Assembly (NCBI GenBank): GCA_021234155.1
Contig: JAJEKV010000049.1
Location: forward strand, 7,970,036 to 8,034,035
From: Isoetes taiwanensis
Taxonomy: Eukaryota; Streptophyta; Lycopodiopsida; Isoetales; Isoetaceae
Direction: 5' to 3'
Length of the DNA: 64,000 nt
The notes under the pieces are model-generated. The model was not told where the DNA came from, searched no databases, and saw nothing but the letters and a program-made list of their open reading frames with translations. Each line of letters opens with the position of its first letter. The first letter of the stretch is position 1. Shown piece by piece: positions 8,621 through 37,543 of the stretch. The position numbers were made by a program, and so were the translations under genes.

Positions 8621-8621
8621 C

Positions 8622-12662: not shown

Positions 12663-12667
12663 AGATC
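12663..12667. repeat. Target site duplication of OUTER element, left
   Basis: AGATC immediately before the TGTGACG LTR terminus; the same five bases follow the other LTR end at 39575-39579. A 5 bp duplication is usual for Gypsy integrases. Confidence 0.95.
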
Positions 12668-14332
12668 TGTGACGTCCCCTACTCGTATACGGTGCACTCA
12701 CCGTATACAAACAGGAGTTCATCCCCCGTACCAGCTCTGTGCCGATACAGGGCCCTCCACATGACACTGCAACCGTGACGGGTTCCAGTGGGAAGAGTTA
12801 AGGGGTCATTTTACCCCGTCTCCCTCAGGGCCTACCTAGCTGCGGAAGCGTAAACATACATGTCAGTATATAGCATCAGCACATATCCACCTCGAAGGGT
12901 GGTCCATCACATCTGCATAAACAAGGTGAGCACAATACATTTGGGGAGTCCTACCCAAGGCTCAGACTCAAGGGGTTGACTGACGGCTTGGGTCTCCAGA
13001 GTTCATTGCAGACAGAATTTATAGCAATGGATTTGGCTGGCATATGAACATGGCATAGGGTTGTCCACTCCATCCGCCCCTCCTGTGCACACTTTGCAGA
13101 GTAGGCTGAAAAGTGTCGGGACTGCCCAGAGCCAGCCGGATGCATAGCCAAAGGGGCTATTCCGGGTTTCATCTCCCCAGTTCCGATGGGGCAGGAAGGG
13201 ATCACTCCCTCCAGAGATGTACCTGCTGACTCTAGGTGACTAGAGGGCCACTGCCCGTGTTCGACTGAACCCACTGGAAAGTGAACACCACTTCACGGGT
13301 GTCGAGTCCATGCCTTACCCGCCCTCAGTGGTAAGCCATTAGACCTAGTCACAATGATCCCCGGTAGGCCTTACACACCAGAGGGATCGTTCAAGAGTCA
13401 GAACAGGAACCTCCTTCTTAGCCAGTCTGGCCCCTTCACCCACAACCAGGTGTGGTTCTTGTACACAGGCCGAATCTATAATGTGCTAGAGAGGCTAATC
13501 TAGGAGCATCTACTACCAAGCTTTAGGTCTCTACCCCCCTTCCCAATACAAGGAGTTCATAGAGATACATCCTCCACATACATCACAGAAGAACTAAAGA
13601 ACTATATCTAAGCTATATCATAGGGTTAGGTTCTTTAGTTAGAGTCTGGTATCTAGAGATCTAGAGAGCTGCTATGGGCAATTTAATAGGCTAAACCTAC
13701 TGATTCTATGACTGAAACATGGTTTAAACTATTAAATTGCCTAAATACCTGATCCTTGAGTGGCTCCTCCTGACCTGAGCTCAACCATCCTGCTGAAACG
13801 CTCGAATCAAGGGAAACTAATGGTGCAATTCTCCTAGGCAGAGTCTGGGAGGCGGTTTTGGCTCTTGAGGCAGCCAAAACAGAGCTCTAAAACCCTAGAA
13901 ACGAAAAATGGGCAAGTTAGGGTTTCCCTCCTTAAATAGACATGGGGTTGGCTAGGGTTTCCAATTATCCCCTTTAGGCATGTGGGATAATTGGGAATGG
14001 GCCCACTTGCCTTTAATGGCTAGGTGGCAAAATGTGCCCACATGGAAATGTGTGCCCACATTAATGTGTACATTGGAAAATGTGCACATTAATTGCACCC
14101 TTGGGTATGGCCCACTTGGCATGAAGTGTCCATGTGGAAATGTGTGCCCACATTAATGTGTACATTGGAAAATGTGCACATTAATACTAATGCACAATCT
14201 TAGCAAGTTGCCCCCTAGGGCTACTCACTTGGCCACACGTCGGCGTACACGTCAGTCGGAGTGGCGGTAATGCGATGACGAGGCAAGATAAAGATACGCC
14301 CGGGACCGTAGATATCGCCCCGGAATGTCACA
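12668..14332 (-). repeat. OUTER 3' LTR
   Basis: 1665 bp direct repeat matching 37545-39574 minus the MITE there. It starts TGTGACG and ends TGTCACA on the plus strand. It includes a perfect hairpin near its plus-strand left end (GTATACGGTG, 4 bp loop, CACCGTATAC at about 12688-12711) and a tandem repeat of about 64 bp (14028-14092 and 14125-14186, phrase AAATGTGTGCCCACATTAAT). The extreme right end is altered relative to the other LTR at CAG/CTG sites. Confidence 0.93.
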
Positions 14333-15218: not shown

Positions 15219-16258
15219 TTAATCTACACAAATCGACATGCCTGAGCCGATTTCTTCGGAGATGACTTTGCCGTCCCATTGCTCCATAAACTGCGGGTAC
15301 TGCTTTACTAGATCTTTCTTAAGTACCCACGTCGCATCTTCCACTGGCAAGTGTTTCCACTTGACCAAGTATTGGAGGAACTCCGACCTCCTTGTTTTCT
15401 TGAAAGCTTTATCAAGAATCAGTTCTGGAACTATTTCCAGCTGCTCCTCCGTCATTTCCAACAACGTTGGAGTGTCCAAGACTTCGTCTAGATTTGGGGT
15501 GTGCTTCTTCAACAAACTCACGTGGAAGACCTTATGAATCTTTAGGTGTGCTGATAAGTCTAGCTTGTAGGATTGATTACCTACTCTCTTGACTATTCTG
15601 AAAGGTCCAGCCCACCTTGGAGCAAGCTTCTTGCAATTCCTGATCCTGAGCTTCGCCTGCTTCACCTTGATCTTGAGCCACACATTGTCGCCAACTTCGA
15701 ACTCCCTGACTGTTCGATGCTTGTCGGCGATGCTCTTTTGTCGGCTCCTTGCTGCTAGCAGATACCCTCGAACTTCTTCCACTAGCTGCTGCATATCGGC
15801 CAACATCTGCTGCGAAACTTCTACTTTTGACACGGGATTGTGCCAAGTGTCTGGAGTTAGGCATTGATAGCCGTAATTGATCATAAACGGCGACATTTGG
15901 GATGATTCCTGCTTGGTGCTATTGTATGCAAACTCCACCAAGTGAATAAATTCCTCCCACATACCTTGCTTATTCCAGACATAGTTTCGTAGCATGTCCT
16001 CCAAGATCCTGTTGGTCCGCTCCGTTTGGCCATCCGTCTGAGGATGATACGCCGTGCTCATGGATAACTTCGTCTGAATCGTCGTAAAGAGGTCTTGTCA
16101 AAAGGCGCTCATGAATTTCGGATCCCTGTCGGAGATGATCTCCCTTGGCATCCATGAAGCTTAAAGATCTCTTTGGTGAAGAGCTTTGCTGTATCCATAG
16201 CGGTGTCTGTGGTCCTGCAAGGCACAAAGTGTGCCATCTTTGACAACTTGTCGACCAC
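15219..16258 (-). pseudogene. OUTER integrase C-terminal half with chromodomain
   Basis: Minus strand, continuing the integrase cut by INNER: from [17 protein letters not shown] at the junction, through the SDRDPKF (Asp) region, to YHPQTDGQTERTNR with the catalytic Glu. Then come the GPY/F-type region (KLAPRWAGPFRIVKRVG), HKVFHVSLLKKH, and a C-terminal chromodomain (YLVKWKHLPVEDATWV). The last 280 codons from 16061 are open. Between about 16090 and 16145 there is a frameshift and an in-frame TGA just after the SAF motif, so integrase is broken independently of the INNER insertion. The chromodomain marks the chromovirus clade and probably directs integration to particular chromatin. Confidence 0.93.
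16254..16258. repeat. Target site duplication of INNER element, left
   Basis: ACCAC, repeated at 29457-29461. Removing INNER plus one copy restores a continuous integrase frame (IVVV joined to [10 protein letters not shown]). Confidence 0.96.
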
Positions 16259-17877
16259 TGTGACGTTCCAAGTATTTATACGGTATACGTATAAATATAT
16301 TGACACGTCACCTAGTATAGATACGCCACCATGGGGTATGGTAACCTAGGGGGTTGACCTAAAAGGGATTAAATTAGCTATGCTAATTTAATTATTAAGG
16401 ATAATAACCTATAACTAAGGAACTAATATTTAAAAAGCCATAATTAAGTTAATTATGGCTTGGGAAGGCGCCACGTGGCCACCCTCGATTGGCTAACATG
16501 GTAATGCTAATTGGGATCAATAGGGTGGATCATCACCCCCATATCAGCCACAACTCACCTTGAGCGATTGGGCGCCACCCTTGTGACGGTGCTGGCGCCA
16601 CCTTGAGCAGTTGGACGCCACCCTTCTGACACGAGCTGAACACCAAGACCAAGAAGATGGAAATCCCCAATGACAACGGGTCCAGCAGAAACATAGGTGG
16701 GTGGCTAGAGTAGTTGTGAATTCTAGGATAGCGCCCCTGTTGGGCACCTGTTTGGGTTGTTGGTCTGTTCTCTCTGTGTTTTACTCGTAGGAACTAACCC
16801 TTGATTGTAAAGGTAAGTTCTCTTTATATTCTGATTCTGGTTTTGCTCGTAAAGGATGGATTGATGGTTCTTGGCCTAGTATTACTCTGGAAATGGGGGA
16901 ATTAAGGGGGGTAGAGACCTCTGAGCCATTTATTGTAGTATGCTCCTAGATAGAGCCCTGTATTATCCCGTTAATTGCGGCCTGTGCACAAGAGCCCACC
17001 GGGTCATAGATGCTATGGTACTGGCTTAGCACCAGACAAGGAACACAGTGGTGAAGTGGGGGTGGGGTCTTGCACGAACATAAAAGGCTCCTGAGACTCC
17101 TACAGTGAGCTAGGCCCGAGCCCGGTCACGTGAGGGGCGGGTATGGGTCCGACACTCCACGGGTGTAGAGGTGTGACCCGTATGGGGCACCTTGCACTTT
17201 GAGTAGATTTAGGGTGAGTAAGTCGGGTACGGATGCGGCACGTATTCTCTAGCTCACCCATGGAACCACTGTGATTCTGGAAGGGGACGCCTCCCTGACC
17301 TGCCTCATCGGACTGGGGCTTCATGAACCCTGGAGTAGGCTCAGCAGGGTGATGCCTCGAGCCTGCGTCTCCGGAAGGCTATAGCGAGGCCATAGCGTGA
17401 ATTGACCCATCTGCAAAGTGTGCACAGGAGGGGCGGATGGAGTGGACCACCCTAGCCGATGTTCTATGCCAGCCAACGCCAGGTTATACCTCTGTCTGCT
17501 GATCTCTTGAGGCCAAGCCGTCAGTTTACCCTCACAGGAGTCGGAACCGGGGTAGAACCTTGGGTTTGGGGTGTTTTCTTAGGTTTAGATGCATATTCTT
17601 TGCCGTTGGTATTTGGATGGATGTGCCACCCTTCGTGGTGGTTATTTATATATGATTTATGCTGTGTGCTAACCCTTGTATTCACGCTTCCGCGACATAG
17701 GCGCCCATTGAAGGCGTGGGCCGAATGACCCCTCTGTGTCCTTCACTTGAGCGTCTTATTATAGACGGCCCGAGTTAGACGGAGGGCCCTGCTTATGGCA
17801 AGTTGGTTGCCATGGGAGGGGAAAGTCCCCGTATGTATCTGGTACCGAGGGTCGTATATGTTCGGGAGGCGTCCGCA
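16259..17877 (+). repeat. INNER 5' LTR
   Basis: 1619 bp. It starts TGTGACGTTCC and ends GCGTCCGCA where the other LTR has GCGTCACA. Close to the start lies a perfect hairpin (ATTTATACG, GTATA, CGTATAAAT, about 16274-16296). It is collinear with 27814-29456; many differences between the two copies fall at CAG/CTG sites. Confidence 0.95.
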
Positions 17878-17879
17878 AG

Positions 17880-17891
17880 TGGTATCAGAGC
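17880..17891 (+). promoter_or_regulatory. INNER primer-binding site (tRNA-iMet)
   Basis: TGGTATCAGAGC two bases after the LTR end. It is complementary to the 3' end of plant initiator methionine tRNA, the usual minus-strand primer of plant Gypsy elements. Confidence 0.95.
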
Positions 17892-18597
17892 CGTGATTTC
17901 GGATACTCGAAATCATAGCACTGACTAAACCCTAACTCGCTAGTTCGGCAGTTAGGAGAGAGAGTTAAGCAAGAGTGATTGTTTAAGTCTTTGATGTTTG
18001 ATTTAGTGCTAGGTTAATGTAATAGACTGTAATTCCTTAAGAAGTCTGGGCCGACTGGAAGACCCAAGTTTCGAAGAGCTATAACTTTTTGTAGGTAGCT
18101 CGGATGAAGGCGAAAACGGCTCCAATGGATCGGGTACTCTCAAATACCCTAGGGGGCACGTCTCCCGAGGTTAAAAGGACAACAGGCCGCCGAAAAATGG
18201 AAAGGGGCGCTGCCTTACTCAGAGGTGTTTCTTTTCAAAAATAAAACGCGTATAAGCAACGCTTGGCTTGATCACTGATCGTAGCGTATTTTTATCTGGC
18301 CTACTGTTTAAAAAATTTTTATATAAAAAAAAAAAAATTAATATTTTTTTTGAAAATTTTTATAAAAGTTAAAAGTTGAAATTTGAATTTTGAACTATAC
18401 TTTTGGGCGTGTGCTTTCTCTGAGCACCCTTTTCCACCATAGCCGCCGGACTTAAGCTCCAAACTCGCCATAGCTGACCTCCACGCCTCCCTTGCATCTG
18501 CCCTACACCTCGGTGCCCTTACTTACTTCTTAGCGCCGACCCGCCTTGCTTGAGCGCCTCCCTTCCTTCTTCCTTGCTGTTCTTTGTTAGTATAGCC
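17892..18597 (+). other. INNER leader upstream of H3 gene
   Basis: Untranslated leader with an A/T-rich block (18305-18380, including TTTTTATATAAAAAA) followed by a pyrimidine-rich stretch. It could contain an internal promoter for the H3 gene, but the TATA assignment is less clear than in OUTER. Confidence 0.4.
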
Positions 18598-19595
18598 ATG
18601 CCGCGCTTCAAGCTAACCGTGGATTTGAAGAAGTTGAGCGTGTTCGGTTATTTGCCGCCCTAGTAGTCGAAAGCATCTTCTTTGAGGAAGACCCTATGAT
18701 AGATACCATTCTTAACCTTTTTGTCAAGCACTTTTGTCGGGGCCGACGAGTCCCCTACCCTATCTTCCACTTCAACGGCGCTTCCTCCTCAAGTTGAATG
18801 AAGCCGGTCGGGATTACACTCGTGGAGCAGCCGGACCGTGCATGGGCTGTGGTTAAGTTTTATCCCTCGCCAGGACCAGATGACGACCCTGCAGAGCTTA
18901 GTCAGAATGAAGCCCAGAGGATCATGCATCTTGCGAGAGTGGAAGACTTGCACCAGATAGCCAGTGCTCCACCAGACATAAGAATGGAACGTTTTTATTA
19001 CTTGGGGAAAGGTCGTATACTTACGTACCGGGAATACTTTAATCTTCCTACCTTCTCTTGGAATGAAGACCTTAACAGCTTCATCTTTGAGAATGTCCCG
19101 CCAAGGTTTAGTCAAGGCCACACGGAATCCAAGGCGAGGGGAGGACATGCGAGCACCACGGCCAGGTGTACCACACCGAGATTGCTTTCGGCAAGATACA
19201 AATGCTGCCCGGACAAGGAGGCCAGGGATGAAGAGAGAGAGCGGCTCCAAGAGGAAGGGGAGGACCTTCATAGCCAGCAGAGCGAGAATCAAGAGGGGGG
19301 CCAGCAAGATCACCAGCAGGACCTAGGTGTTGCCCAGAATGTTAATCCCGTGAAAACCACAGCCGGCGTTAACCGATCGGCAGACCCGCAGCAGCCGAGC
19401 GGGCAAGGTAATCGGAGACTAAAGAGAACAAAGTCCCGGCCTATTAAGAGTGGGGTGCACTATAAGACCCGACTGCAGCAGGATGCAACAATCGCCAAGA
19501 AGACATCGGCTCAGAGACGGGAGCACATCGTTGAGCGGACAAGGCATCCTAACACAAAGCGGGCAAGTCCATTCCGCCGCAAAGGCGACCCTTAA
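18598..19595 (+). pseudogene. INNER accessory gene 1, N-terminal part of H3 fusion protein
   Basis: A possible start is ATG 18598 (MPRFKLTVDLKKL), but the frame breaks at about 18660. A protein-like frame follows (18672-18795, FFEEDPMIDTILNLFVKHF), then an open frame of 265 codons from 18798 (MKPVGITLVEQPDRAWAVVK). That frame begins with about 110 residues of globular-looking sequence (ERFYYLGKGRILTYREYFNL), then a Gln/Glu-rich linker, then a strongly basic tail rich in Lys/Arg/Thr/Ser. The basic tail occupies the place of an H3 N-terminal tail but does not match the canonical ARTKQTARKS. The globular part matches nothing I know. The frame ends at 19595, overlapping the histone-fold frame, so one more indel lies near 19580. 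Confidence 0.65.
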
Positions 19596-19902
19596 GCCGC
19601 GGAAACCCCACAGGTTTCGACCGGGCACGGTAGCACTTCGGGAGATACGTAAGTATCAGAAGACTACCGAGCCATTGATCCACCGGCTTCCCTTCCAGCG
19701 CCTGGTACGGAAGATTGCTCAGGACTTCAAGACCGACCTAAGGTTTCAAGCTTTTGCGATCCTTGCCTTACAGGAAGCTGCCGAGGCGTATCTTATTGAA
19801 CTTTTGAGCGACGCTAACCTTTGCGCCATACACGCGAAGAGGGTCACTATTATGCCCAAGGACCTTCAGCTGGCACGAAGGATCCGAGGGGATTTTAGGT
19901 GA
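19594..19902 (+). CDS. INNER-encoded histone H3 fold domain
   Basis: About 102 codons, ending in TGA at 19900-19902, read as an H3 core without gaps: [76 protein letters not shown]. The alpha-N helix, alpha-1, loop 1 (ordinary H3 length), alpha-2, loop 2 and alpha-3 are all recognisable. It differs from plant H3 at several core positions, for example [10 protein letters not shown] where plant H3 has TELLIRKLPF and [20 protein letters not shown] where H3 has the AVMALQEASEAYL type, so it is not a fresh host gene copy. H3 pairs with H4 in nucleosomes. Lying on the element's coding strand between PBS and gag, it is element cargo. Confidence 0.93.
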
Positions 19903-20143
19903 TGACACGACCGTCTTTTTCTGTTGTAAAAATTTTTGTAACTTATCCATGTACTAGTCCCATTTTTGGGGTTGTGAATATAAAAACATTTTTTTTGGAA
20001 ATATATTATTAAGTAAATAAAAATTTTAATAATAATTTTGGGAAACGTGCCAAAAAGTATAAAACCCCTTTTTGGCCATTAGGGTTTCATTTTCCCTTCT
20101 TGCTTCAGCGCCTCCTTTCTCCTCCTTTGCGCCTTCACTCTTC
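19903..20143 (+). promoter_or_regulatory. Intergenic region with TATA box for INNER ORF2
   Basis: An A/T-rich spacer, then TATAAAA at 20058-20064, a pyrimidine-rich leader and ATGGCT at 20144. The TATA-to-ATG distance of about 80 bp fits a plant core promoter with short leader. OUTER has the corresponding TATAAATA before its ORF2. Confidence 0.6.
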
Positions 20144-21529
20144 ATGGCTCGCCCAACCCTGCAGCAGTGGTACTTAGACGGAGAGCATTGGGACCCTGCG
20201 GTTCCCTTTGATCTTCTTCACCCCTACACGCCCCAGCGAGGTAGACCTTATCTCAACATGCGGGGCCATCCGGATTATGCTGCTTTCCTTCAGTTCTGTT
20301 ATGAGGAGATTGTACCTGCATGCGTTTGCAATGAAGACGATGGGCAGCTCTATCTTGATTTTCACACCCCGCACGGATGTTGGGGGTGATGAGCATGCCC
20401 CATAGCGTCATCAAAGGCATCGACGGCGAGGGACCGACCTCCCTATTGCTACGATAGATCGGGAAACCTGTTTTGAGGCCCGATTCGCACTGGCCGTCAT
20501 TATGGACCAGTACATAGAGGATGAGGAGATTCCTGCTGAGCATTCTTCTACGCCTCTACCTCCTGACCCAGAAGATGACGAAGTCGTCAATGAGCAGGAT
20601 TTCGTAAGATGGAAGGAACTTGCTCTGAAGCCCCCCGCCGGTAGACAAAAAGCCCTTAAGCTCGAAGGGTTAAACCTTCTCCTGCGGTACTCTTGAATGA
20701 CCAAGAGTACACGATCTTTGAGGATATCATGTGGGCCTCTGGCGTTCTTCTTGGGATTCGCCGCAAGAAAATAGAAATTCTTTATGATCTTGCGGAGTAT
20801 TGCCAAGATGACTTCATCGATTTCACCACACCGGTTGTGCAACCTGCCCAAGTAGAGAGCCTCTTGGCATATCGGCCCGAAGAGCAAGAGCCCATTGAGA
20901 CTCTTTTGTCACTTCGCCAGTTCTTACTAACTGACACACCCCAGCCTCCAGAAGAGCAGTTTGCGGCCCCGACACGGCCATTTCTCTCGGAACCGCCTCT
21001 GCGAATCACCATGGGAGAAGTGGATCAGGACGAGGAAGACCTTTGGGACACCAAGGTCAGCCTTGAGGATGACAGGGAAGAAGAAGAAGAGGAGAAACTC
21101 CCTATCAATTTGGAAAAGGAAGCGGAAACCTCCACCGACCCTCAGGTTAGGGCAATGGGCAACCATGTGGCCCGATTCTTTCTCTCAGCCTTCCGCCAAG
21201 GAGAGGTGCTATTTTTCTCTAAGAACCTAGGGCCTTCTTCTGAAGCTTCTTGGTGGGCGCTCCGAGCCATATCTACTTCAGCGGGCCATAAGAAGATTGA
21301 CTATCACATCACCACCATTACTTTGGTCCGTAGAGATTTGGCTATAGCAGCATTGGGGGACGTGGCGGGCTGCGCTAACATGCGCCTCCTTGTGGCAGCG
21401 CCTTTGGCTACTTGCTTACCACCTGAGGCAGCAGCTCGAGCCGCCCTTTCTGCTAGTCCTAGCGCCACTTTGATGCGTTATCGTCCACCTCCTCAGCCAA
21501 TGAACGAAGACGAGGGACCTAGCTCCTAG
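20144..21529 (+). pseudogene. INNER accessory gene 2 (ORF2), unrecognised conserved protein
   Basis: Starts MARPTLQQWYLDG at 20144. It is open to about 20389, frameshifted, resumes by about 20450 (FALAVIMDQYIEDEEIP), shifts again near 20694 and is then open to the TAG at 21529. Predicted length is roughly 450 residues: an N-terminal Trp/Tyr-rich part, a proline/acidic linker with DDREEEEEEK around 21075-21100, and a C-terminal domain (about 21150-21400) with RFFLSAFRQGEVLFFSKNL and ITTITLVRRDLAIAAL. I do not recognise the family. OUTER has a counterpart in the same position with the same start (MA...WY) and a similar C-terminal domain, so it is a genuine, conserved element gene. Its location next to the H3 gene suggests a partner role, which is inference. 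Confidence 0.7.
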
Positions 21530-21677
21530 ATGATTGTATTATGTATTTTGCATTCTGAAATCACTGTAAAATTTTCATTGGCAATGTCTTAAGCCATGGT
21601 TATCACTCGTGATGTGTTATCCTTTATGATTATTGTCTATTGTATCAATCAATATGTAATGCCAATATAATTTTGAA

Positions 21678-22480: not shown

Positions 22481-23764
22481 ATGCGCTTTGGCGGACACCC
22501 TCAAACGCCCGGTCGGTTAACACCCAAGCAAGAATTGATGCTAATGAAAAGACGACTAGGGCGATTTACGAGGCCTATGTGTTGCATGCTAACCCACCAC
22601 GGCATGTACAAGAAGGCGGACCGGAGTTACCTCCGTTCCGCCTAGTCGCCTACACGCGGCCGTCCCCACCACAAACTAGCCCGTTACTGCGCGAAAGAGG
22701 CCCCAGTCCTAAACGCCGCGGAGCTCCTCTAGAGACAGTGCCACCTCCTCAAAGTCCGCCGCCGATTGTCATCCGAATCATCCGCATCATCGGTGGCCAT
22801 GCAAAGCCCGGGATAAGAGAGTACCGCAAGGCGGTTGATACAGCCATAACTAGTATATGGAAGAATAGGAAATTGGCCCGGTTTGATGGGAAATCTAGAG
22901 GCGGCTTGAATGCGAATCTGGCTGGACGAAATGAAGGAGTTCGCGAGTCCTATGGCATGAGAGAAGGATACTGAGGAAAGGTTGCCACCACAAACTAGGA
23001 GCTGCCCGTATTTGGTGGAAGGGCTATGCGAGCCAAACATCGGGCAGGGAGTAGATGCAACCGAGAGAAAGTTTGCCAAGGCCTTCAAATCGCATTATGT
23101 GCCGTGCACATAAATGCCAACAGATCCGGACTTTCTGAGGTTGGAGCGAGAAGAGTATGTCCGCAGGCTTACGGATGAGTTTATGCGCTGAGACCTGTAT
23201 GTACCTGGTATGAATGAGAAAAGGGCGGTGGAAGGCTATATTGAGGGTTTGGCACCATCGATCAAGCGGATGGTTAAGGCCATCGACCCAAAATCGATTC
23301 TGGCGGCCGAGGCTAAAGCATTGAGCCTCGAGGAGGACATACCAAGGAATCGGAGATCCGCGTCCTGCTCCTTACTGCATGACCCACGGCCGTCCACACC
23401 TTACAAACCCCGCTCTCCAAGTCCGGGGCCCTCTTAGCGAGAACTCTTACGGTCGCCCGGGAGAAGAAAGTCGCTTTTAGCACGCCCGGATAAGCGAGAA
23501 CAATCTTTGGTAAGGAAGTTCAAACCTCTTGATCCATTCCTAAAGAGGCCGGGAGAACATTTTGCCGAGATAAGGCATGTTACAGTGTATGAGGCTGGAC
23601 ACTTCATGCGTAATTGTCCATATGTTACCCGACTGCCCTTGGTGGCCATGGCCGACCTCGGCTGGGGCGATATTGAGTCAACATTACCTGGCGGCGAGGG
23701 CGGCTCAGAGTACATTCACCGGTCGTCTCATATCCTTGCGGCTATAGAAAGCGGCAATCTTTGA
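22481..23764 (+). pseudogene. INNER gag
   Basis: ATG 22481 (MRFGGHPQTPGRL) opens a frame that breaks within ~170 bp. The Gag capsid core is clear further on: GAARIWWKGYA at about 23000, KFAKAFKSHYVP at about 23075, FLRLEREEYVRRLTDEF, VPGMNEKRAVEGYIEGLAPS and KAIDPKSILAAEAKALSLEE, the retrotrans_gag pattern. A degraded zinc knuckle (YEAGHFMRNC) lies at about 23590. Internal stops and shifts at about 22975, 23110 and 23190 break it. Gag forms the virus-like particle and binds RNA. Confidence 0.85.
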
Positions 23765-25210
23765 AAAGTCTTCTTTGTCATTTCCACCATAGGCCAAGTA
23801 GGCGGTAAGCCTTTTGTAATTCTTATGGATACGGGGGAGTACACATAATTTTGCTTCTCCTAGAATGGCCCAGTCCTGGCTGGAAACCCTAAGGTCCGCG
23901 ACAGGGGCCTGTCACTTTAGCCGATGGTAAGGTTAGACATACTCATGGTCGTCGCATCAACCTTAAGATCACGGTTGCCAGGCGCACCGGTTGCTATGGG
24001 TGCGAGTTAATGGATATTGGCAAATCGACCTCATTGTTGGAATGGAATTCTTGGCATCCGCAAAAGCCAACATAGGCTGCGAGAAGAGAAGTTACCTTCA
24101 ACGCAGACTAATGGAGCCAGCGTAACTATAAAAGGTGAACCATTCAACCCTATCATGCGTCTATGTCCATTCGACAGTTAGATAAAGCTATACATGCAAA
24201 GCAAAAGCTCCTCTGCGTTATTAGACTTGCTTCCATTGAGTCGGATGCTAAGCAAAACCAAGTAATCAACACCTTGCCACGGGGGGGATTGCCGGTGTTA
24301 CCATGAATTTAGCGATCTTTTCCCGGGACGAGATCGAAGCTTCCTCCTTTTAGAGGGCTAGAATGTGAGATAGCTCTAGAGCCGGGGCACTAAGCCTACC
24401 AGCAAGGCCCCGTCACCGTATGAGTCCCCGAGTTGGCGAGCTTAAGAAGCAACTTCAAGAGCTACTAAACCTAGGTTTTATTAGACCTAGCGTTTAGCCC
24501 TTTGGCGCCCCTATTCTTTTGTAAAGAAAAGGGCGGCTCCTTGAGAATGTGTATTGATTATCGGCAACTCAACAAGCATACCATCAAAAATCGCTATGCT
24601 TTCTTGGGAAGCGGATGATCTAATGGATCGGTTGCAAGGGGCCAAATATTTTCAAAGATTGACCTTGGCTCGGGATATCATCGGATAAGGATTAAAGAGG
24701 AGGACATCCATAAATCTGCTTTTTCGCACTAGATATGGGCATTATGAGTTTACCGTTATGCCTTTCGGATTAACTAATGCCCCATAGCGTTTATGCGGTT
24801 AATGAGCGATGTTTTCCGACAATACTTGGATGATTTTGTTGTCATTTTCTTTGGTGACATTCTCATCTGATGAAGACTCTAGAAGAGCATGAGAAACATC
24901 TTAAATTGGCCCTACAAAAGTTAAGGCGTCATCAGCTTTTGCCAAGTTCTCTAAGTGCAAGTTTGCCACTCAAAGGTTGATTATTTGGGCCATATCATTT
25001 CTGCGAGAGGAATTGCTACTGATCCGGCAAAAATAGAGGCCGTAAGGGAATGGCCTATTCGAGAAAATGTCTCAGAGGTCCGAAGTTTCTTGGGATTAGC
25101 AGGATACTATCGAAAGTTTGTAAAGGATTTTGCAAGGATTGCAGCACCTCTTACAAATCTTACGAAGCATGAGAAGGTGAAGGATTGGATGGAGCCTTTG
25201 GAAGACTAAG
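23765..25210 (+). pseudogene. INNER protease and reverse transcriptase, heavily frameshifted
   Basis: Protease active-site region ILMDTG at about 23825, followed by FASPRM-like sequence. The RT begins near 24420 ([17 protein letters not shown]), with [18 protein letters not shown] at 24547, [14 protein letters not shown] at 24673, [19 protein letters not shown] at 24725 and the catalytic box VVIFFGDILI at about 24838. The box reads FFGD where the family has FFDD. The thumb/connection is open from 24955 to 25209 ([20 protein letters not shown]). There are at least eight small indels, many where the parallel OUTER gene has CAG or CTG. Confidence 0.88.
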
Positions 25211-25870
25211 GTTCGGGGAAGTTTCAAAGCAACTTAAAGATGCCTTAACGTCGACACCCGTTCTCTCCGTTGCCCGATCGACAAGGATAAACTAGTGGCC
25301 ACGGATGCAGTCAAATTGCCACCGGTGGAGTCGATGCAAGAAGGGAGGGTTATTGCCTATGATTCAAAGAAGATGAGCGAGGCGAACAGCGATATCCTAC
25401 CCATGATCAGGAGTTGTTAGGCTGTTGTTGGCGCCCTTGCGAATATGGAGACACTACCTCCTTGGTAGAAGATTCCAGTTGGACACGGATCACCAAAGTC
25501 TCCGTTATTTATCCACCCAACCGAACCTCAACCTCCGTCAGAGGAGATGGATGGAATTTCTTGAAGAATATGATTTTGAGATCATGTATAAGCCTGGAAA
25601 GCACAATGTGGTTGCGGATGCATTGTCACGCCACCCCTCGGTAACCCGAACCCATTGTAATGCAATTTCTACACTCACAAGTGAGTTTGGGAAACAGATA
25701 GAACAGACCTTGGCTACGGATCCCGAGTTCTGTGAAATATGGGCTAGTTTGAGTAAGGAGGCACGCACAGATAAAGAACGCGAAGCTTTCCGTTCATATA
25801 AGAAAGAGGGCAATCTGTTATATCACAAGGATAAGTTGTGTGTACCTCAGACTTCGAGTCGCGTAAGTTA
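25211..25870 (+). pseudogene. INNER RNase H
   Basis: The first half is broken (KLVATDA at about 25290, retaining the first catalytic Asp; YDSKKMSEA at 25360). The second half is open from 25425 to 25871 with [20 protein letters not shown], the C-terminal Asp in [27 protein letters not shown] and [10 protein letters not shown]. RNase H removes the RNA template during reverse transcription. Confidence 0.88.
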
Positions 25871-27211
25871 ATCCTCCATGACACACATAACACCCTATAA
25901 TTTGGACATGCGCGGGATTTATGAAGACCTATTTTAAAATCCGTTCTAGCTACTTTTGGCCTTCGATGAAGAAGGATATTGCTAGATATATTAAGCAGTG
26001 TCAAGTGTGTCAGCAAACCAAGGCGGAGCAACTAAGACTTCCAGGAGAGCTACAGCCTTTGGATGTGCCCCACGCAAAGTGGGAAGTAATAACCATGGAT
26101 TTCATTGTGGGACTGCCACGAACTCTCCGTGGCTATGATGCACTAATGGTGGTCGTCGACAAATTGTCAAAAATGGCTCACTTCTTGCCCTGTCGTACCA
26201 CCGGAAACCGCCTTCGACAATCTTGCTTTTGCTTTTAAAGGAGATCTTCGGGTTGCCCGAATGCCACGGGTTATTGTATCTGACAGAGATCCCAAATTTG
26301 TAAGTGCATTCTGGAAAGATTTCTTCACCACCATCCAGACCAAGCTTGCTATGAGTACCGCCTATCATCCTCAGACAGATGGTCAGACAGAGCGTACCAA
26401 TCGTATCATAGAGGATATGCTACGAAGTTATGTGTGGAGTAAGCAATCCCAATGGGCTGACTATATTTATCTAGTAGAGTTTGCCTATAACAGTATGAGA
26501 CAGGAGTCTTCCAGAATGTCTCCTTTCATGATAAATTATGGTTATCAATGCCTTACTCCTGACACATGGCACAACCCCGTGTCGAAAGTGGAGGTTTCTC
26601 AACAACTCCTCCTGGAGATGCAAGCTTTGGTCGAGGAAGTGCGTGGTTTACTTGCTAATGCGACGATCGTCAAAAAGTGTAGCGAGATAAGCACAAGACC
26701 CCAGGTGGGTGAATCGGTTTGGCTTAAGATTAAGGTAAAACAAGCCAAGCTTAAGATTGGTAAGCGCAAGAAGTTGGCACCGGATGATGGGCTGGACCGT
26801 TCAAAATCATCGAGCGTATTGGGGAGCAAGCATATCGCTGGACTTGCCACCCCGTTTAAAATCCACAAGGTTTTTCATGTGAGTCTTCTAAAGCAGCACA
26901 CCCCGATCCGGAGGAGGTTTTGGAAACCCCAACCCTCCACGGAAATGACGGAGGAGCAGCTAGAGATAGTACCTGAAGCTCTTCTTGATCGAGCTTATAA
27001 ACAGACCAGGAGGACTCAAATGTTACAATACTTGGTCAAGTGGAAACACTTGCCAGTGGAGGATGCTACGTGGGTGATGCAAACAGATCTTGAGAAGCAC
27101 TATCCGGATTTCATGCGCGAATCTCAAGGCCGCACCATCAACGATGCTATCAACCCCGCTCCCGGCGGTAAGTTTGAAGACTTGATTCGCCGAGAATCAG
27201 TAGAGGGGTAG
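25871..27211 (+). pseudogene. INNER integrase with chromodomain
   Basis: HHCC zinc-binding part (DTHNTL...GHAGFMKTYF; CQVCQQTKAEQL) from about 25880, then ITMDFIVGLP with the first catalytic Asp, [12 protein letters not shown] and a frameshift at about 26205. An open 316-codon frame (26261-27211) follows with SDRDPKF (Asp), HPQTDGQTERTNR (Glu), HKVFHVSLLKQH and a chromodomain (YLVKWKHLPVEDATWV). It is clearly paralogous to the OUTER integrase but with many substitutions, and less damaged than INNER's RT. Confidence 0.92.
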
Positions 27212-27813: not shown

Positions 27814-29456
27814 TGTGACGTTCCAAGTATTTATACGGTATACGTATAAATATATTGACACGTCACCTAGTATAGATACGCCACCATGGGGTATGGTAAC
27901 CTAGGGGGTTGACCTAAAAGGGATTAAATTAACTATGCTAATTTAATTATTAAGGATAATAACCTATAACTAAGGAACTAATATTTAAAAAGCCATAATT
28001 AAGTTAATTATGGCTTGGGAAGGCGCCATGTGGCCACCCTCGATTGGCTAACATGGTAATGCTAATTGGGATCAATAGGGTGGATCACCACCCCCATATC
28101 AGCCACAACTCACCTTGAGCGATTGGGCGCCACCCTTGTGACCCGAGTGGCGCCACCTTGGCAGTTGGGCGCCACCCTTCCGACACGAGCTGAACACCAA
28201 GACCAAGAAGATGGAAATCCCCAATGACAAGCGGGTCCGGAGAATCCGCAGGTGGGTGGCTAGAGTAGTTGTGAATTCTAGGATAGCCGCCCTGTTGGGC
28301 ACCTGTTTGGGTTGTTGGTGCGATTCTCTCTCGTGTTTTTACTCGTAGGAACTAACCCTTGATTGTAAAGGTAAGTTCTCTTTATATTCTGATTCGGTTT
28401 TGCTCGTAAAGGATGGATCGATGGTTCTTGGCCTAGTATTACTCGGAAATGGGGGAATTAAAAGGGGTAGAGACCTCGAGCCATTTATTGTAGTATGCTC
28501 CTAGATAGAGCCCACGTATTATCCCGTTAATTGCGGCTTTGTGCACAAGAGCCCACGGGTCATAGATGCTATGGTGCGGCTTAGCACCGGACAAGGAACA
28601 CAAGTGGTGAAGTGGGGGTGGGGTCTTGCACGAACATAAAAAGGCTCACGAAACTCCTACGATTGAGCTAGGCGATAGCCGGTCACGTAGGAGGGCGGGT
28701 ATGGGTCCGACACTCCACAGGTGTAGAGGTGTGACCCGTATGGGGCACCTTGCACTTTGAGTAGATTTAGGGTGAGTAAGTCGGGGTGCGGATGCGGGGG
28801 TCGGCCGATGCGCACGTATTCTCTAGCTCACCCATGGAACCCTTTGTGATTACGGAAGGGGACGCCTCCACGACCTGCCTCATCGGACTGGGGCTTCATG
28901 AACCACAGAGTAGGCTCGGCGGGGTGATGCCTCGAGCCTGCGTCTGGGGAAGGCTATAAGCGAGGCCATAGCGTGAATTGACCCATCCGCAAAGTGTGCA
29001 GGTGAGGGGCGGATGGAGTGGACCACCCTAGCCGATGTTCTATGCCGGTCCAACGCCGGGTTATACCTGCATCTGTCACGCTGATCTCTTGAGGCCAAGC
29101 CGTCGGTTTACCCTCACGGGAGTCGGAACGGGGTAGAACCTTGGGTTTTGGGGTGTTTTCTTAGGTTTAGATGCATATTCTTTGCCGTTGGTATTTGGAT
29201 GGATGTGCCACCCTTCGTGGTGGTTATTTATATATGATTTATGTTGTGTGCTAACCCTTGTATTCACGCTTCTGCGACATAGGCGCCCATTGAAGGCGTG
29301 GGCCGAATGACCCCTCTGTGTCCTTCACTTGAGCGTCTTATTATAGACGGCCCGAGTTGAACGGAGGGCCCTGCTTATGGCAAGTTGGTTGCCATGGGAG
29401 GGGGAAGTCCCCGTATGTATACGGCCGAGGGTCGTATATATTCAGGGAGCGTCACA
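27814..29456 (+). repeat. INNER 3' LTR
   Basis: 1643 bp, starting TGTGACG and ending CGTCACA (perfect 7 bp terminal inverted repeat). Collinear with the 5' LTR. The first 290 bp and the last 300 bp are almost identical to it, while the middle (about 28130-29150) differs mostly at CAG and CTG sites. Confidence 0.95.
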
Positions 29457-29926: not shown

Positions 29927-31948
29927 TCATTTGGAGAGCGTCGAAATTGCATTGCAATGCACTCTAGTTGTCAGGGGATGCCTTGAAAGCGCATCCGCTA
30001 CCACATTGAGCTTCCCTGGCTTGTAGACTATATCAAAGTCATACTCTTCAAGGAACTCCATCCATTTTCTCTGCCTCAGGTTGAGGTGTGGTTGCGTGAA
30101 TACATACTGGAGGCTCTGATGGTCTGTATCCAACTGGAACTTCCCTCCCAAAAGATAGTGCCTCCAAATTCTTAATGCCCTGACGACTGCAAGCAATTCC
30201 TGATCGTGGGTGGGGTAGCGCGTTTCGGCGTCGTTCATCTTCCTGGAGTCATACGCTACTACACGCTCTTCTTGCATAAGCACTGCACCTGTAGCTGTCG
30301 CCACCAGCTTATCTTTCTCTGGGTCCGGCAGGGTTAGGACTGGGGCTGTTGTTAAAGCTTCCTTCAACAATTCAAACCCTGCTTGGGCTTTCTTGTGCCA
30401 ATGCTCTGCCCAATCTTTCACCTTCTCCGCCCTCGTCAAGTCTGTTAACGGGGCCGCTATCTTAGCAAAGTTCTTCACGAACTTCCTGTAGTACCCTGCT
30501 AGGCCGAGAAAACTTCTGACTTCATGCACATTCTTCGGCGCCGGCCACTGAATGACGGCTTCAATCTTGACAGGGTCCGTCGAGATTCCTTCTGCTGAGA
30601 TCACATGACCCAGGTATTCCACCTTCTCTGTTGCGAAGTGACACTTCGACAACTTGGCGTACAACTGGTGCCTCTTCAACTTCTCTAGCACTCTCCTTAA
30701 GTGTTGTACGTGCTCTTCAAGGGATCTGCTATACACCAAAATGTCATCAAAGAATACAATCACAAAGGTGTCTAAAAACTCCCTGAAGATGTCGTTCATG
30801 AGCCTCATGAACGTCGCGGGGGCATTCGATAAGCCGAAAGGCATTACCGTGAACTCATAATGCCCATACCGCGTTCTGAAGGCGGTCTTGTGGATATCGT
30901 CTTCCTTTATCCTGATCTGATGATATCCTGACCTTAAGTCGATTTTGGAGAAGACCTTTGCACCTTGGAGCTGATCCATCAAGTCGTCTGATCTGGGGAG
31001 CGCATACTTGTTCTTAATGGTATGCTTGTTCAACTGCCTATAGTCTATGCACATCCTTAAACTGCCATCCTTCTTCTTTACAAAGAGAATGGGTGCTCCA
31101 AATGGCGAGACACTAGGTCTAATGAAGCCTAGGTCGAGCAACTCCTGCAATTGCTTCTTTAGCTCCGTCAATTCTTGTGTCGTCATTCTGTATGGAGCCT
31201 TACTTGTCGGCTTTGTTCCCGGTTTGAGTGCTATCTCACACTCGACTCCCCTGTAAGGAGGAAGCTGCTTGATCTCATCTGGAAAAAGCACATGGAACTC
31301 CGTGATCAGCTGTGCTATTTGCTTCGGCAACTTGCTGAGCACTTTGTCTTCTTTGCTTTCTTCTGACTCTGGCTCATCAATCTCAAGCTTGAAGATGTAT
31401 GCCACATGCTCGCTCTTGATGCACTTGAACAGCCGCTTAGAAGACATACACTGCATGATGGGAACAACTTCTTTACCTGTGATCTCAATGATCTTGCCGT
31501 CGGGTGTTGGGAAGGTCACCTTCCGCTTTTTACAATCAATAATGGCCCCTGCTGGTCCAAGGTACTCCATTCCTATGATCAAGTCGTACTTGCCAATGCC
31601 CATTACTTCTGCCCCCATCTGGATTTTAATCCCTGGCAAGTCGATGTCGAAGTTAATTCTCTTGCCTGCCGTCTGCCTTACTGCTCCACTTGCTAAGACA
31701 ACGGGCCTTGGCTTTGACTTTAGTGGTTTCAACTTCAACATTTGAACCATTCTGGGGGAGGCAAAATTATGGCTACTTCCCGAGTCTATCAGGACTATGA
31801 AGGACTTGGTCTTGGCCTTCCCTACTGTGGAAATTACTTTATACTGGCTCTTTGCTTGCTCTGTATCAATTGCGGCAAAGATATGACACTCACCCTGAAT
31901 GTAGTCACGGGCTTCCTCGCCGTCGTCGTCGGGGAACGAGTGTCCCAA
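29927..31948 (-). CDS. OUTER pol: protease, reverse transcriptase, RNase H
   Basis: One open frame of 673 codons. It has an aspartic protease with [15 protein letters not shown] (about residues 50-65) and LIIGMEYL. The RT runs from [20 protein letters not shown] through [57 protein letters not shown] and the catalytic FFDDILVYS. RNase H has [12 protein letters not shown] and [11 protein letters not shown]. In the RNase H N-terminus the sequence runs [13 protein letters not shown], where the family has KLVATDAS...GAVLMQ: about five codons including the first catalytic Asp are missing in frame. The polyprotein would normally continue into integrase, but a stop intervenes. Confidence 0.95.
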
Positions 31949-33440
31949 TCTCCCAATTCGCTAGTCTTTGCACTCATGGCGTAGGGGCGGTTCATTTGTC
32001 CCTATGGCTTTGGCTGGAAGCACACGAAGCAAAAGCTGCTTTTCTATGCACTCTGTCTCTTTTCCTTGGGCATCGCTGCAAAAGGATCGCACAGCTTTGG
32101 AGTAGTTTGACCCCTCTGCTTGTCCTTGAAGGACACTGCTTCTTCTCCTTTGTTTCCCACTGGTTTGCCACCATATGGGGCTCTAATTTGGACACATTTA
32201 GGCTGCCCTAGGGCTATAGCTTCCGTCGCCTTGCCTTTATCCACGAAAATCTTGCCCTGCGCCCGCTATTCTGAGGGTCCGTCCCTTGCAAGCTTATAGC
32301 CTTGGACTCGCCCGACAACTTGTCTTAGGGTTTATTGCCCTCACAAGCTTGCGGATCTCCTCATTGACCCCTCAATATAACTTTCTCTTGCATGCTTCTC
32401 ACCCAATTTTGGCACATCTGACCTCGATCTCATGAATTCCTACGTGTATTTACGGACTGATTTGTTTCCCTATTGCAACTTTGTAGAAGCTGGCTGCATC
32501 ATCTTTGGACTTGTGTTCCCTTGGGGCGTAATGGCGCTTGAAGGCTTTAGCAAACTTTCTGAACTTACAAGCATCCCTGCTTAAGCCATGTGCCTTTGCA
32601 TAACCCTTCCACCAAATCCGTGCGGCTCCTTTCAAGATGGTACATTTGCCACCGCCTTTGTCTTTATCCTTCATACCATAAGCATTGCCAGGTACTCACT
32701 CATTTCGTCCAGCCATGCCTCGCTTCTAATCGACATGTTCTCCCAGAAGCCTGTTCCGATTCAGGGCCTTCCATACATTGCCGGTCGCGGAATCTACCTT
32801 CTTACGGTAGTCGAGGCCCTAGTGTCCCTTTATCGTCCTTCTATGGCGTCCCTCTGCCTTGCATCTACAGTGTTCCTTTGCCTTGCATCTGTTCGGTCCT
32901 GGGCCTGATCTTCTTCTTCCTCGGAGTGAGGAGAGTCGAATCACGAGCTTGAGTCGGAAGATTAGGGCTGGAGGATCTCCTTCTCTTGTTCCTCTTCTTG
33001 TCCCTTCCTGCTCTCCGAGCTGATGCTTCTGCGGCAATTTGGCGTTGCCCATAGAACCTGCTCACGCTGCGGCCAGCCAAGGCCTTTATCGTTCGAGGTC
33101 CGTCCTCATCGGGATATTTCCTCTTACGGGGTCATGGGTCCAAATTCCTCAAAGCGGGTTCCTTCGGAGGTGGCACAGGCGAACTCTGTTCTTCCATATG
33201 GTCTCGGCGTTGTCGTTCCCCTGAGCCTAGGCCTCTAACTGCATGCACAAGTAATTCATGGCTATATGGTTAGTTTTTTCTTGTTCTCTTGCATTGTTTA
33301 TGTTTGTTGGTATAGTTGTGGGGCAAAAATACATCAACAAAACATTTAAAGTGCAACAGAAATTATATTCATATATATATAATATAATATTTTAGTACAA
33401 AAGTCTCCGGGATCAAGAGTCTAACTAATCTTGGAATCGC
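31949..33440 (-). pseudogene. OUTER gag
   Basis: Minus strand, frameshifted. The capsid core is clear at 32450-32674 (KGAARIWWKGYAKAHGLSRD, FRKFAKAFKRHYAPREHKSK), homologous to INNER gag. Upstream (about 32865-33080) is a very basic Arg/Lys-rich N-terminal region (RKKKIRPRTEQM), and a degraded zinc knuckle (VCFQPKP then GQMNR) lies near 31990-32040. The gag start is uncertain. An AT-rich spacer of about 170 bp (33270-33440) separates it from ORF2. Confidence 0.8.
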
Positions 33441-34954
33441 CGGTAAGACGGGTTGTCTTCGAGGAACTTCTTAACTTGGGCCGTTCCTACCGAATGACCC
33501 AAGTTCCTGATGACGCTTGCTGACGAGCCGCCCTGCAAGGCTCTCGCTTGACTCTTCCACCTAGCTCGGCGGTTTTGTAAGGGCCGCGGTCACCGCCAAT
33601 CTCGCCTGCCGTCGATGGGGTATGGCGAAGTCGAAGAGGTCCAGTGCCATTGCCCTCTTGACTAGGACAGCATAGTCGACGTTTGCCGCTATTCGAGCAT
33701 GCCTGCCGAAGCCTGAGAGTGCAATCAGCATGAACACCCCTTCTTCACCTTTGGGGCTGAACTTGCGGTGTACCACCGCTATTCTCCCGTCTAGCAGCAG
33801 TGGCAGGTAGTACCTCAGGGATCTGTCGTTGTGTGTCGCGGAAGATTCTCCACTTGTTTGGCCTCCTGCTCTATGCCACCGGCTGTGATTCGCCGACCTC
33901 TATCTCGGTGAGCTCGGTGAAGTAGTCTTCAATTGTGGAGTCGACTTCGCCTGAGGTCGATTCCCGCTCCTCTTGCTGGGGGTGGTGTCAAAGGCCTGGG
34001 CATTAGGATGCTCGTGGTCTTCCCACGGATCCCCATCTGTTCTTGGAGGGCGAGGAACTCCTCCTCCGTTGGCAGCTCTCGCTCATCCATCATTTGCCTG
34101 ATGCTGCTGTAGGCCTGGATGTCGGAAGTCGACTCCCCTGTGTAGGTGTCAGCCTCCCTCACTTGAAGCGGAAAGTCCAGGCTCGGGGACGATGAAGTCG
34201 CCCAAGTCGGACTGCCGTAGCTGGTGGAGCGATTCATCAATCGAGCTCCCTCCCCGCATTCGGGAAGGTTACGGATGTCGAGGAGGAGTAGATACTCCTC
34301 TCGTTGATGATGATAGGGGCTAGGCTTGTGATGCCTAGCCCAAGTGGGGAGCAACTCGATAGTCCGCCGGCTACGCGCCGAAGTTGACCAGCTCCTGTTC
34401 TGCTTGTTGCCGTTCTTCTTCTAAGTCGAGCTCTGTGTACTTATTGTCGTCCAGGCTCCTCTTCTTCTTCCTCTGCTTCTTCGCTCTTTAGCGTCTTGCG
34501 AGAAGCATCTGCTCCTCACGCTCTTGTTTGCTATGGAGTCCACCTCCATCGGAGGGATAGAGGTTGCCCCCATTGGGTTTTCGGCGCGGTGGGACAAGAA
34601 AATAGCTAGGGCGGCGGTGTATGAGAAATACTTGGTCCTGTTGGCTGCCAGGACCATGTAGTCTGGCAGCCTCTGCGCCTTGTTAGTTAGGTACTTGGCG
34701 ATATTGGGGACATCACCCAAGGCTGCTTGAAGGGATGGGCGGGGAACGAAATATCCTATGCAAGGGGGAACCTGAACAAGGGAGGGTCCTACCCTAGCCT
34801 GAAACTCTGCTAACACTTGCCTATATGCTGGGGTTGCATTTAGCGTAGCTTGGATATCAATTTCTTTCCCAAAGACTTGGAAGATGTCGTTGACATCCGC
34901 ATCTGCAGCATGGGCACTGGCGCTGTACCATCGCCTGAAGTCAGCAGTGGCCAT
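33441..34954 (-). pseudogene. OUTER accessory gene 2 (ORF2), counterpart of INNER ORF2
   Basis: Minus strand, starting MATADFRRWYSAS at 34954 just below a TATA box at 35039-35046. It is open to 34421 (FVPRPSLQAALGDVPNIAKY; YMVLAANRTKYFSYTAALAI), then shifts. 34354-33929 holds a linker (MDERELPTEEEFLALQEQMG), and 33776-33561 a C-terminal domain (VHRKFSPKGEEGVFMLIALS; VLVKRAMALDLFDFAI). Position, length, start MA...WY and the pattern of the C-terminal domain match INNER ORF2 (20144-21529), although identity is low. Function unknown; no known retroviral or plant domain recognised. Confidence 0.65.
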
Positions 34955-35226: not shown

Positions 35227-35293
35227 GTCTCACACGTTGCGCCCAGACCGATAATGAAAAGTTCATTTTCTGTCCTGGCGCGACGTGTGAGAC
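35227..35293 (-). repeat. 67 bp palindromic element, copy A (upstream of ORF2 TATA)
   Basis: Ends GTCTCACACGTTGCGCC and GGCGCGACGTGTGAGAC, which pair over about 17 bp with one T/C difference. The interior (ATAATGAAAAGTTCATTTTC) is itself partly palindromic. One of four copies. Confidence 0.85.
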
Positions 35294-35425
35294 ATAGGTT
35301 CTAAATGGGCTAAACTTAATCAATTTGGCTAATCTAAGGCTGTAATTCTACTAAACTCGCCAAGTTAGGCAGAATTGACCCCTTATTTGGTCGATTTGGA
35401 GCAGTTTTGGGCATTTTTGGGCATG

Positions 35426-35492
35426 GTCTCACACGTTGCGCCCAGCCCGAAAATGAGAATCTCATTTTCTGTTTTGGCGCGACGTGTGAGAC
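35426..35492 (-). repeat. 67 bp palindromic element, copy B
   Basis: Same ends as copy A; starts 199 bp from it (35227 to 35426). Confidence 0.85.
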
Positions 35493-35636: not shown

Positions 35637-35905
35637 TCAAGGGCGTTCCCCCTTGATATGCCTGGCAAGATACATATCCTGCCTCATGAGGGTGACCCTC
35701 TTTGCGTGTCTTTGTCGCGGCCGTCAAATCTTCAAAATCGCAGACTATTTTTCGCCTCTGCTGCCTCCTGTAAGCACAGCAGCATTTCATCGGTCACGCG
35801 CATGTCCGTGTTGTACTCCTGGATTACTTCACGGACCAAGCGTTGAAACGGTGCCCGGGGGATCAAGAGTCTGGAAGTGCCGGATCTCCTTGAGGGCTCT
35901 GTCCT
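35637..35905 (-). pseudogene. OUTER-encoded CenH3-like histone H3 fold
   Basis: Minus strand, C-terminus of accessory gene 1. The pieces read in order as an H3 fold: ALKEIRHFQT (alpha-N, about 35895), LLIPRAPFQRLVRE (alpha-1, 35870), LLCLQEAAEA (alpha-2, 35775), an FEDL segment (end of alpha-2, 35730) and RVTLMRQDMYLARHIKG (loop 2 and alpha-3, 35695-35645), ending ERP and TGA at 35637. Frame changes occur at about 35865, 35760 and 35700. EIRHFQ, LLIP.APF and RVTLMR.D are features of plant centromeric H3 rather than ordinary H3 ([16 protein letters not shown]). Loop 1 is short, unlike typical CenH3. Homology to H3 is strong; the CenH3 affinity is suggestive. Confidence 0.82.
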
Positions 35906-37068: not shown

Positions 37069-37135
37069 GTCTCACACGTTGCGCCCAGCCCGAAAATGAA
37101 AAAGTCATTTCCTGTCCTAGCGCGACGTGTGAGAT
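37069..37135 (-). repeat. 67 bp palindromic element, copy C (upstream of H3 TATA)
   Basis: Same as copies A, B and D except that the right end reads GTGAGAT; it lies about 75 bp above the H3 TATA box. Confidence 0.85.
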
Positions 37136-37270
37136 ATGGTGGGACCCACTATCAAATTTAATACTTGTTAAGCATGTAACATGCCAATTCTACTGATTCT
37201 TAGCTTAAAATTAGAATTATCGAGTTATTTTACTGTGATTCATGACATTTCTTAATGTTCCAAGCTGAAT

Positions 37271-37337
37271 GTCTCACACGTTGCGCCCAGCCCGAAAATG
37301 AAAAAGTCATTTCCTGTCCTGGCGCGACGTGTGAGAC
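37271..37337 (-). repeat. 67 bp palindromic element, copy D
   Basis: Nearly identical to copy C in both stem and loop; the two start 202 bp apart. Confidence 0.85.
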
Positions 37338-37531: not shown

Positions 37532-37543
37532 GCTCTGATACCA
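37532..37543 (-). promoter_or_regulatory. OUTER primer-binding site (tRNA-iMet)
   Basis: The plus strand reads GCTCTGATACCA, the reverse complement of TGGTATCAGAGC, one base from the LTR terminus at 37545. Confidence 0.95.

Follow-up and report, generated by a model that had tools for sequence, protein, structure and literature searches.

A histone H3 core in the same position of two nested chromovirus families of Isoetes taiwanensis

In plants, transposon silencing works by marking histone H3, and chromoviruses are believed to recognize these marks. Histones carried by mobile genomes are familiar from viruses, as in the doublets of Marseillevirus and the H4 of bracoviruses, and LTR retrotransposons with an extra ORF near gag (Ogre ORF1) or a captured host gene (Bs1) have been described. 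To our knowledge no histone occurs in LTR elements of either kind, and none of the literature searched, which lay mostly outside subscription papers and preprints, describes a retrotransposon with a histone gene.

The locus analyzed here is a 64,000-nucleotide stretch of the Isoetes taiwanensis genome (the window), in which two related elements, EL1 and EL2, each contain an H3 core. As with the virus-borne histones, a mobile genome has its own histone, although here the carrier is an LTR retrotransposon and not a DNA virus; as with Ogre and Bs1, the elements have extra or captured coding sequence. EL1 and EL2 share with plant chromoviruses (Ty3/Gypsy, group II chromodomain) their LTR ends, a 5-bp target site duplication (TSD), a primer-binding site (PBS) and the order protease-RT-RNase H-integrase-chromodomain, but differ from them in having two additional ORFs upstream of gag, the first of which includes the H3 core, an arrangement that did not appear in the literature searched.

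Structure of the two nested elements

Repeats in the window are nested within one another. EL1 is an LTR chromovirus on the plus strand (16259-29456, termini TGTGACG...CGTCACA) that is inserted in the integrase region of EL2, a chromovirus on the minus strand. The parts of each are given below in the order of its own coding strand.

EL1 5′ LTR, 16259..17877, plus; starts TGTGACG; TSD ACCAC at 16254-16258
EL1 primer-binding site, 17880..17891, plus; TGGTATCAGAGC
EL1 ORF1 leader, AT-rich, 18241..18597, plus; TATAAAW at 18322 and 18361; similar to the ORF2 leader
EL1 ORF1 N-terminal part, 18598..19592, plus; ATG at 18598; open frame of 265 aa at 18798-19592, in a different frame
EL1 histone H3 core, 19594..19902, plus; KPHR... 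begins at 19603; stop 19900-19902
EL1 second leader, AT-rich, 19903..20143, plus; TATAAAW at 19979 and 20058
EL1 ORF2, protein without assigned function, 20144..21526, plus; frames broken; borderline similarity of its C-terminal part to EL2 ORF2
EL1 gag-like region, in pieces, 22819..23434, plus; GAARIWWKGYA, RKFAKAFKSHYVP
EL1 pol (protease, RT, RNase H, integrase, chromodomain at about 26969-27115), 23893..27208, plus; broken frames
EL1 3′ LTR, 27814..29456, plus; TSD ACCAC at 29457-29461; polypurine tract immediately 5′
EL2 5′ LTR, 37545..39574, minus; TSD GATCT
EL2 primer-binding site, 37532..37543, minus; sequence identical to the EL1 PBS
EL2 palindromes, ORF1 leader, 37070..37336, minus; two copies of 65 bp (37336-37272, 37134-37070), 202 bp apart; TATAAAW at 36993
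EL2 histone H3 core, 35637..35897, minus; pieces in three frames, one 11-nt deletion; stop 35639-35637
EL2 palindromes, ORF2 leader, 35228..35491, minus; two further copies, 199 bp apart; TATAAAW at 35046
EL2 ORF2, protein without assigned function, 33564..34954, minus; MATADFRRWY..., broken frames
EL2 gag piece, 32453..32695, minus; Retrotrans_gag 18.4 bits, under the cut-off of 24.1
EL2 pol (protease, RT, RNase H), 29930..31960, minus; 677 codons open
EL2 integrase C-terminal part and chromodomain, 15222..16097, minus; separated from the remaining pol by EL1
EL2 3′ LTR, 12668..14332, minus; TSD GATCT at 12663-12667

Both elements have paired LTRs with TG..CA ends, and their target duplications of 5 bp lie within the expected 4-6 bp. 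When the two EL1 LTRs are aligned, 1539 of 1653 columns agree and 51 are gaps, which leaves 63 substitutions over 1602 sites (3.9%); the corresponding figure for EL2 is 3.4%. The PBS TGGTATCAGAGC of EL1 is, we assume, of the initiator-Met type. Segments of EL1 align to EL2 pol in the same order, as expected of Gypsy elements, and integrase-side and chromodomain segments are present in both. The chromodomain at the integrase C-terminus of EL1 scores 37.5 bits and that of EL2 40.4 bits (Pfam cut-off 25.1), and in EL2 Pfam also detected RNase H and an RT at 141.6 bits (RVT_1). The first-pass annotation, which covered EL1 only, had placed the H3 sequence on the sense strand of a chromovirus, and the paired LTRs, the ACCAC/ACCAC duplication, the PBS and the chromodomain bear this out. 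Its placement between PBS and gag holds on the upstream side, with a PBS at 17880 and the core downstream of it, while the gag assignment itself falls below Pfam cut-offs. That assignment is weak: one EL1 piece reaches 12.7 bits for Ty3_capsid (cut-off 29.1), and the pieces, including GAARIWWKGYA, are common to EL1 and EL2.

The EL1 copy is broken. Its 265-aa ORF (18798-19592), in which an acidic stretch precedes a basic tail, is not in the same frame as the H3 frame (19423-19899), and the frame opened by the ATG at 18598 meets stops before it reaches the H3 core, so that no intact N-terminal-H3 fusion protein can be read and the fusion is one that we infer. The N-terminal domain and basic tail of the first-pass annotation are thus recognizable as an ORF, but not as part of a continuous H3 protein. 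No relatives of this ORF were found at E≤0.01 among 287 candidates in a protein search. EL2 is broken too, and an intact H3 product is readable from neither copy. Its 5′ LTR includes about 350 bp (37611-37965) that are absent from the 3′ LTR and rich in TACCGTACC-like repeats.

The remainder of the window contains further repeats. A third chromovirus pol remnant lies at 43117-48522 (minus), and the profile scan showed no H3 near it. A direct repeat of 1.2 kb (4052-5240 and 39756-40954) is 97.5% identical between copies and is no plain LTR pair; each copy lies near a segment resembling the end of the pol chromodomain part. A Copia-like element occupies 8558-11314, with a Pfam integrase core and SH3-like domain on 8558-9766 and an RT recognized by eye, with no Pfam match, on 10463-11314. 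LINE-like reverse transcriptase pieces are found at 52686-53012 (minus) and 60949-61350 (plus), with RVT_1 scores of 52 and 43 bits. An open frame at 2349-3263 encodes a eukaryotic aspartyl protease (49 bits), the only host-type gene noticed among the frames examined.

Divergence and constraint of the H3 cores

As the first-pass annotation had stated, 19594-19902 reads without gaps as an H3 core. The 102 codons (19594-19899, followed by the stop) match Pfam PF00125 at 147.5 bits (cut-off 26.4), and the best PDB match is a gapless alignment to residues 37-134 of the H3.3 chain 7ux9_E (E 9e-51). A structure model built from 16 sequences has the αN-α1-α2-α3 helix order of H3 at modest confidence (mean pLDDT 57, core blocks 46-74); the five significant Foldseek matches to it are all chains from nucleosome structures, at 76-80% identity and TM-scores of only 0.20-0.28. 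The EL2 core, read across three frames, runs from ALKEIRHFQ to HIKGERP and scores 80 bits against H3 in the PDB. Two EL2 segments also matched EL1 frames when reading frames were compared across the window (35905, minus, E 2e-10; 35723, E 1.8e-4). We rejected chance similarity for these cores, since a six-frame H3-profile scan of the window returned the EL1 core and the pieces at 35.6-35.9 kb (minus) with the next matches at E of at least 0.43, and none of 20 shuffled windows gave a match at E≤0.01.

Relative to canonical plant H3.1/H3.3, the EL1 core is ungapped and up to 82% identical over 99 columns. It differs at 17 of 99 residues, and the EL2 core at 36 of 84, from a plant consensus that we assembled as a mix of H3.1 and H3.3 and that is not the host's own H3. 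The EL1 changes are S57T, L60P, R63H, K64R, E73K, S86A, H87F, V89I, V101I, G102E, F104L, E105S, T107A, I124L, E133D, R134F and A135R. Among what we take to be the main arginine contacts of H3 only one, R63, is altered; the EL1 core would thus keep its H4- and DNA-facing residues, with DNA contacts largely retained. Position 36, a lysine in canonical H3, aligns as arginine in EL1 (PDB alignment). The canonical tail (ARTKQTARKS..., K27, K36) is absent from the listed open segments upstream of both cores, and the two sequences are further set apart from canonical H3 by being borne on mobile elements. A protein search with the EL1 H3 frame gave 7990 scored hits; the 120 listed, mostly long proteins with ordinary H3, served only as a source of reference H3s.

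With an LTR divergence of 3.9%, only about 4 of the 17 amino-acid changes in EL1 are expected, by our arithmetic, to postdate insertion, so most of them predate it. A recent host H3 copy as the source of the EL1 core was rejected on the number of changed residues, in line with the initial reading of the locus.

Two anciently diverged plant-type chromovirus families carry an H3 core gene in the same slot. In EL1 and EL2 alike the core lies between PBS and gag, and the common order is PBS - H3 - further ORF - gag - pol. The H3 cores are identical at 42 of 84 residues, and pol at 612 of 909 compared residues, a set of codons that includes three short rows (25469+, 25995+, 26970+) resembling wrong-frame matches. 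For H3 pS is 0.79 and pN 0.35 (84 codons); for pol the values are 0.79 and 0.21 (909 codons). Synonymous sites are saturated in H3 and in pol alike; in pol this marks the two families as old and anciently diverged. By these proportions H3 evolves faster than pol and far slower than neutral. The constancy of position that the first reading proposed to check extends, within the window, to a second family, and this speaks against a one-off capture.

We compared the observed H3-profile scores with those of neutral simulations, in which a plant H3 was mutated randomly to an equal number of replacements, with no stops, in 1000 runs. Using profiles trained on 208 sequences, or on 161 after fusion proteins had been removed by motif, the EL1 and EL2 scores each lay above all 1000 simulations. 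When the profile was restricted to 102 canonical-like sequences, the observed score was reached by 1/1000 simulations for EL1 and 83/1000 for EL2. We regard this as good evidence for EL1, and moderate evidence for EL2, of purifying selection on the histone fold after departure from host H3; the EL1 core thus bears a signature of constraint. That signature is compatible with one capture or with two.

The origin of the two cores was approached with a tree of 66 H3 cores, built on only 99 columns. EL1 joins P0193 and P0190 (93/75) and EL2 sits on a long branch beside P0128 (86/95); the two are not joined, and the backbone is open. By eye, EL2 and Arabidopsis CENH3 (P0201) both have ALKEIRHFQ, LLIP and RVTLMR, so that two captures from different H3s are possible, and the EL2 H3 could have been taken from another H3 type. 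Membership of CENH3 itself was rejected: the longer loop 1 of CENH3 is absent from both elements (by eye), and, as weaker evidence, neither lies beside CENH3 in the tree, where a single CENH3 served as outgroup.

These data also bear on whether the H3 has any role at all. Host H3 mRNA may have been caught by template switching in two families independently and carried along without function, the apparent constraint being residual similarity to a highly conserved host gene. The H3 message is short and plentiful, and capture of host mRNA by LTR elements is familiar; moreover, the EL1 and EL2 H3s do not cluster, 83/1000 simulations attain the EL2 score with the canonical-only profile, and the likeness between the two ORF2s (below) is only borderline. 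Against this, H3 occupies the same slot in both families, most EL1 changes are older than the insertion and yet the scores of both elements beat all simulations with the broad profiles, and leaders resembling promoters precede both extra ORFs. We consider such a roleless passenger unlikely. The sequences suggest instead that H3 has long belonged to these elements as a component under selection and is no recent passenger.

Leaders, ORF2 and candidate relatives

Each H3 ORF is accompanied by a second ORF, which in EL1 begins MARPTLQQWY. The C-terminal match between EL1 and EL2 ORF2 is in the right order at a borderline E of 1.6e-4; in a control with 78 query and 76 subject segments, one of 20 shuffles reached 1.7e-4 and the next 0.0022. 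The two ORF2s are likely homologous. A single-sequence structure prediction for the N-terminal part of EL2 ORF2 had a mean pLDDT of 42.6 and was not used.

Between PBS and pol, TATAAAW is found only in the leaders that precede the extra ORFs: both EL2 occurrences (36993, 35046) and all four EL1 occurrences (18322, 18361, 19979, 20058; counted to 24000) lie there, against means of 0.47 (EL2) and 0.77 (EL1) expected per dinucleotide shuffle. The leaders make up 20% (EL2) and 10% (EL1) of the stretch and have an AT content of 58-67%, versus about 50%; the formal P values of 0.041 (EL2) and 9e-5 (EL1) make the pattern look stronger than it is, because AT-rich leaders by themselves favour TATA motifs. 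Within each element the two leaders are alike. In EL1 the ORF1 and ORF2 leaders match at E 4e-6, in their AT-rich part, and 3e-5. In EL2 the match (E 8e-34) is due to palindromes, four near-perfect 65-bp copies between 35228 and 37336 (minus) arranged two per leader, one pair before each extra ORF; a 30-bp common piece (E 0.007) lies behind the TATA motif. This likeness, with TATAAAW confined to leaders, suggests gene cassettes. Each extra ORF may have its own promoter-like leader, and the H3 ORF and ORF2 would be separate transcription units, duplicated together with their promoters.

Of 336 candidates from a protein search with the EL2 H3 region, 119 had E≤0.001; H3 cores were examined for all 119 and full sequences for 46. 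The H3 core starts beyond residue 100 in 48 of the 119, and each of 7 proteins tested with Pfam had a single Histone match. Proteins such as P0141, P0142, P0177 and P0200 have the H3 core behind a long novel N-terminus. Among the 24 group A rows picked for the tree, 20 have IRHFQ or IRHYQ and 23 have CLQEA; group B represents a second fusion-protein architecture. Some of the proteins have a complete start. In P0141 it reads MARTKQTARKDTGG, and between it and the H3 core lie a novel domain and then an acidic linker rich in glycine. This start is canonical-looking (MARTKQTARKD), with D where H3 would have S10; should P0141 be related at all, the markable tail has not been lost throughout. In hhalign comparisons the EL1 N-terminal domain had no homology to that of group A (E 0.86) or group B (E 0.45), while the latter two match each other weakly (E 0.0025). 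Searches of viral contigs with P0141, EL2 pol, P0200 and alignment A1 gave no loci, and a genome-contig search with alignment A1 found 8 loci; the contigs bear titles of bacterial MAGs, and we took these loci as eukaryotic contamination. The fusion proteins could be transposon-encoded; as candidates they are leads and not evidence.

Possible roles of an element-borne H3

The function most likely to be served by the element H3, we infer, is that of a variant without silencing-mark lysines in nucleosomes on element DNA. The element would make an H3 in which the fold and DNA-contact residues are kept and the tail is swapped for another domain. This variant would pair with host H4 and be assembled into nucleosomes on the element's own DNA, either unintegrated cDNA or new insertions. 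Because EL1 lacks the canonical tail (no ARTKQTARKS start, and R for K36), such nucleosomes could not bear marks at H3K9 and H3K27, through which transposons are silenced in plants, and the element H3 would act as an anti-silencing histone. The full account, a selected H3 variant with this activity, is one that we hold tentatively, at somewhat less than an even chance. It is our first choice over the three alternatives considered next since such an H3 would be expected to enter nucleosomes and yet escape K9 and K27 marking.

The kept core and promoter-like leader would also suit a protein acting on the host as a whole. If strongly expressed from that leader, the element H3 might compete with host H3 for H4 or for chaperones and weaken host heterochromatin globally, but this would be costly to the host and we rate it as improbable.

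A histone with largely retained DNA contacts and, by eye, basic stretches upstream of the core in both elements might alternatively condense the element's nucleic acid, together with H4 or via the basic tail, in virus-like particles or the pre-integration complex. H3 works with H4, however, and gag already packages RNA; in addition, a separate promoter-like leader is no less to be expected for a nuclear protein than for one found in particles. The probability we assign to packaging is low.

The nest itself invites a further interpretation, in which element H3 marks the chromatin of copies already in place and is recognized there by the integrase chromodomain or by the fused N-terminal domain, which would direct new copies into old. 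EL1 is inserted in a relative, EL2, and both have a chromodomain, but plant repeats often nest in one another in any case, and a single nest amounts to a single event. Chromodomain targeting to H3K9me has been reported for MAGGY (PMC3350952). According to the same paper, plant group II chromodomains lack the first aromatic residue and in most cases the third as well, and their ligand was not known. By eye, aromatic cage residues one and three are missing from the EL1 and EL2 chromodomains, as fits group II, and a simple model in which they read H3K9me on their own H3 is not favoured. Steering of integration has, in our estimate, a small probability.

Returning to the anti-silencing histone, a broader extension can be envisaged: a long-lived LTR lineage with its own nucleosomal histone, an internal promoter, a second gene alongside and chromatin resistant to silencing marks, of which H3-fusion proteins such as P0141 and P0177 would be members. 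We regard this extension as doubtful, though possible. If the anti-silencing account is true, an element lineage with its own H3 would represent a direct counter-move to host silencing, and nature would have tested in it which features of H3 are required for silencing. Within the literature searched, this would be the first case of a histone gene as a standing component of a retrotransposon. A caution follows for repeat-rich genomes, where gene models that resemble H3 may belong to transposons.
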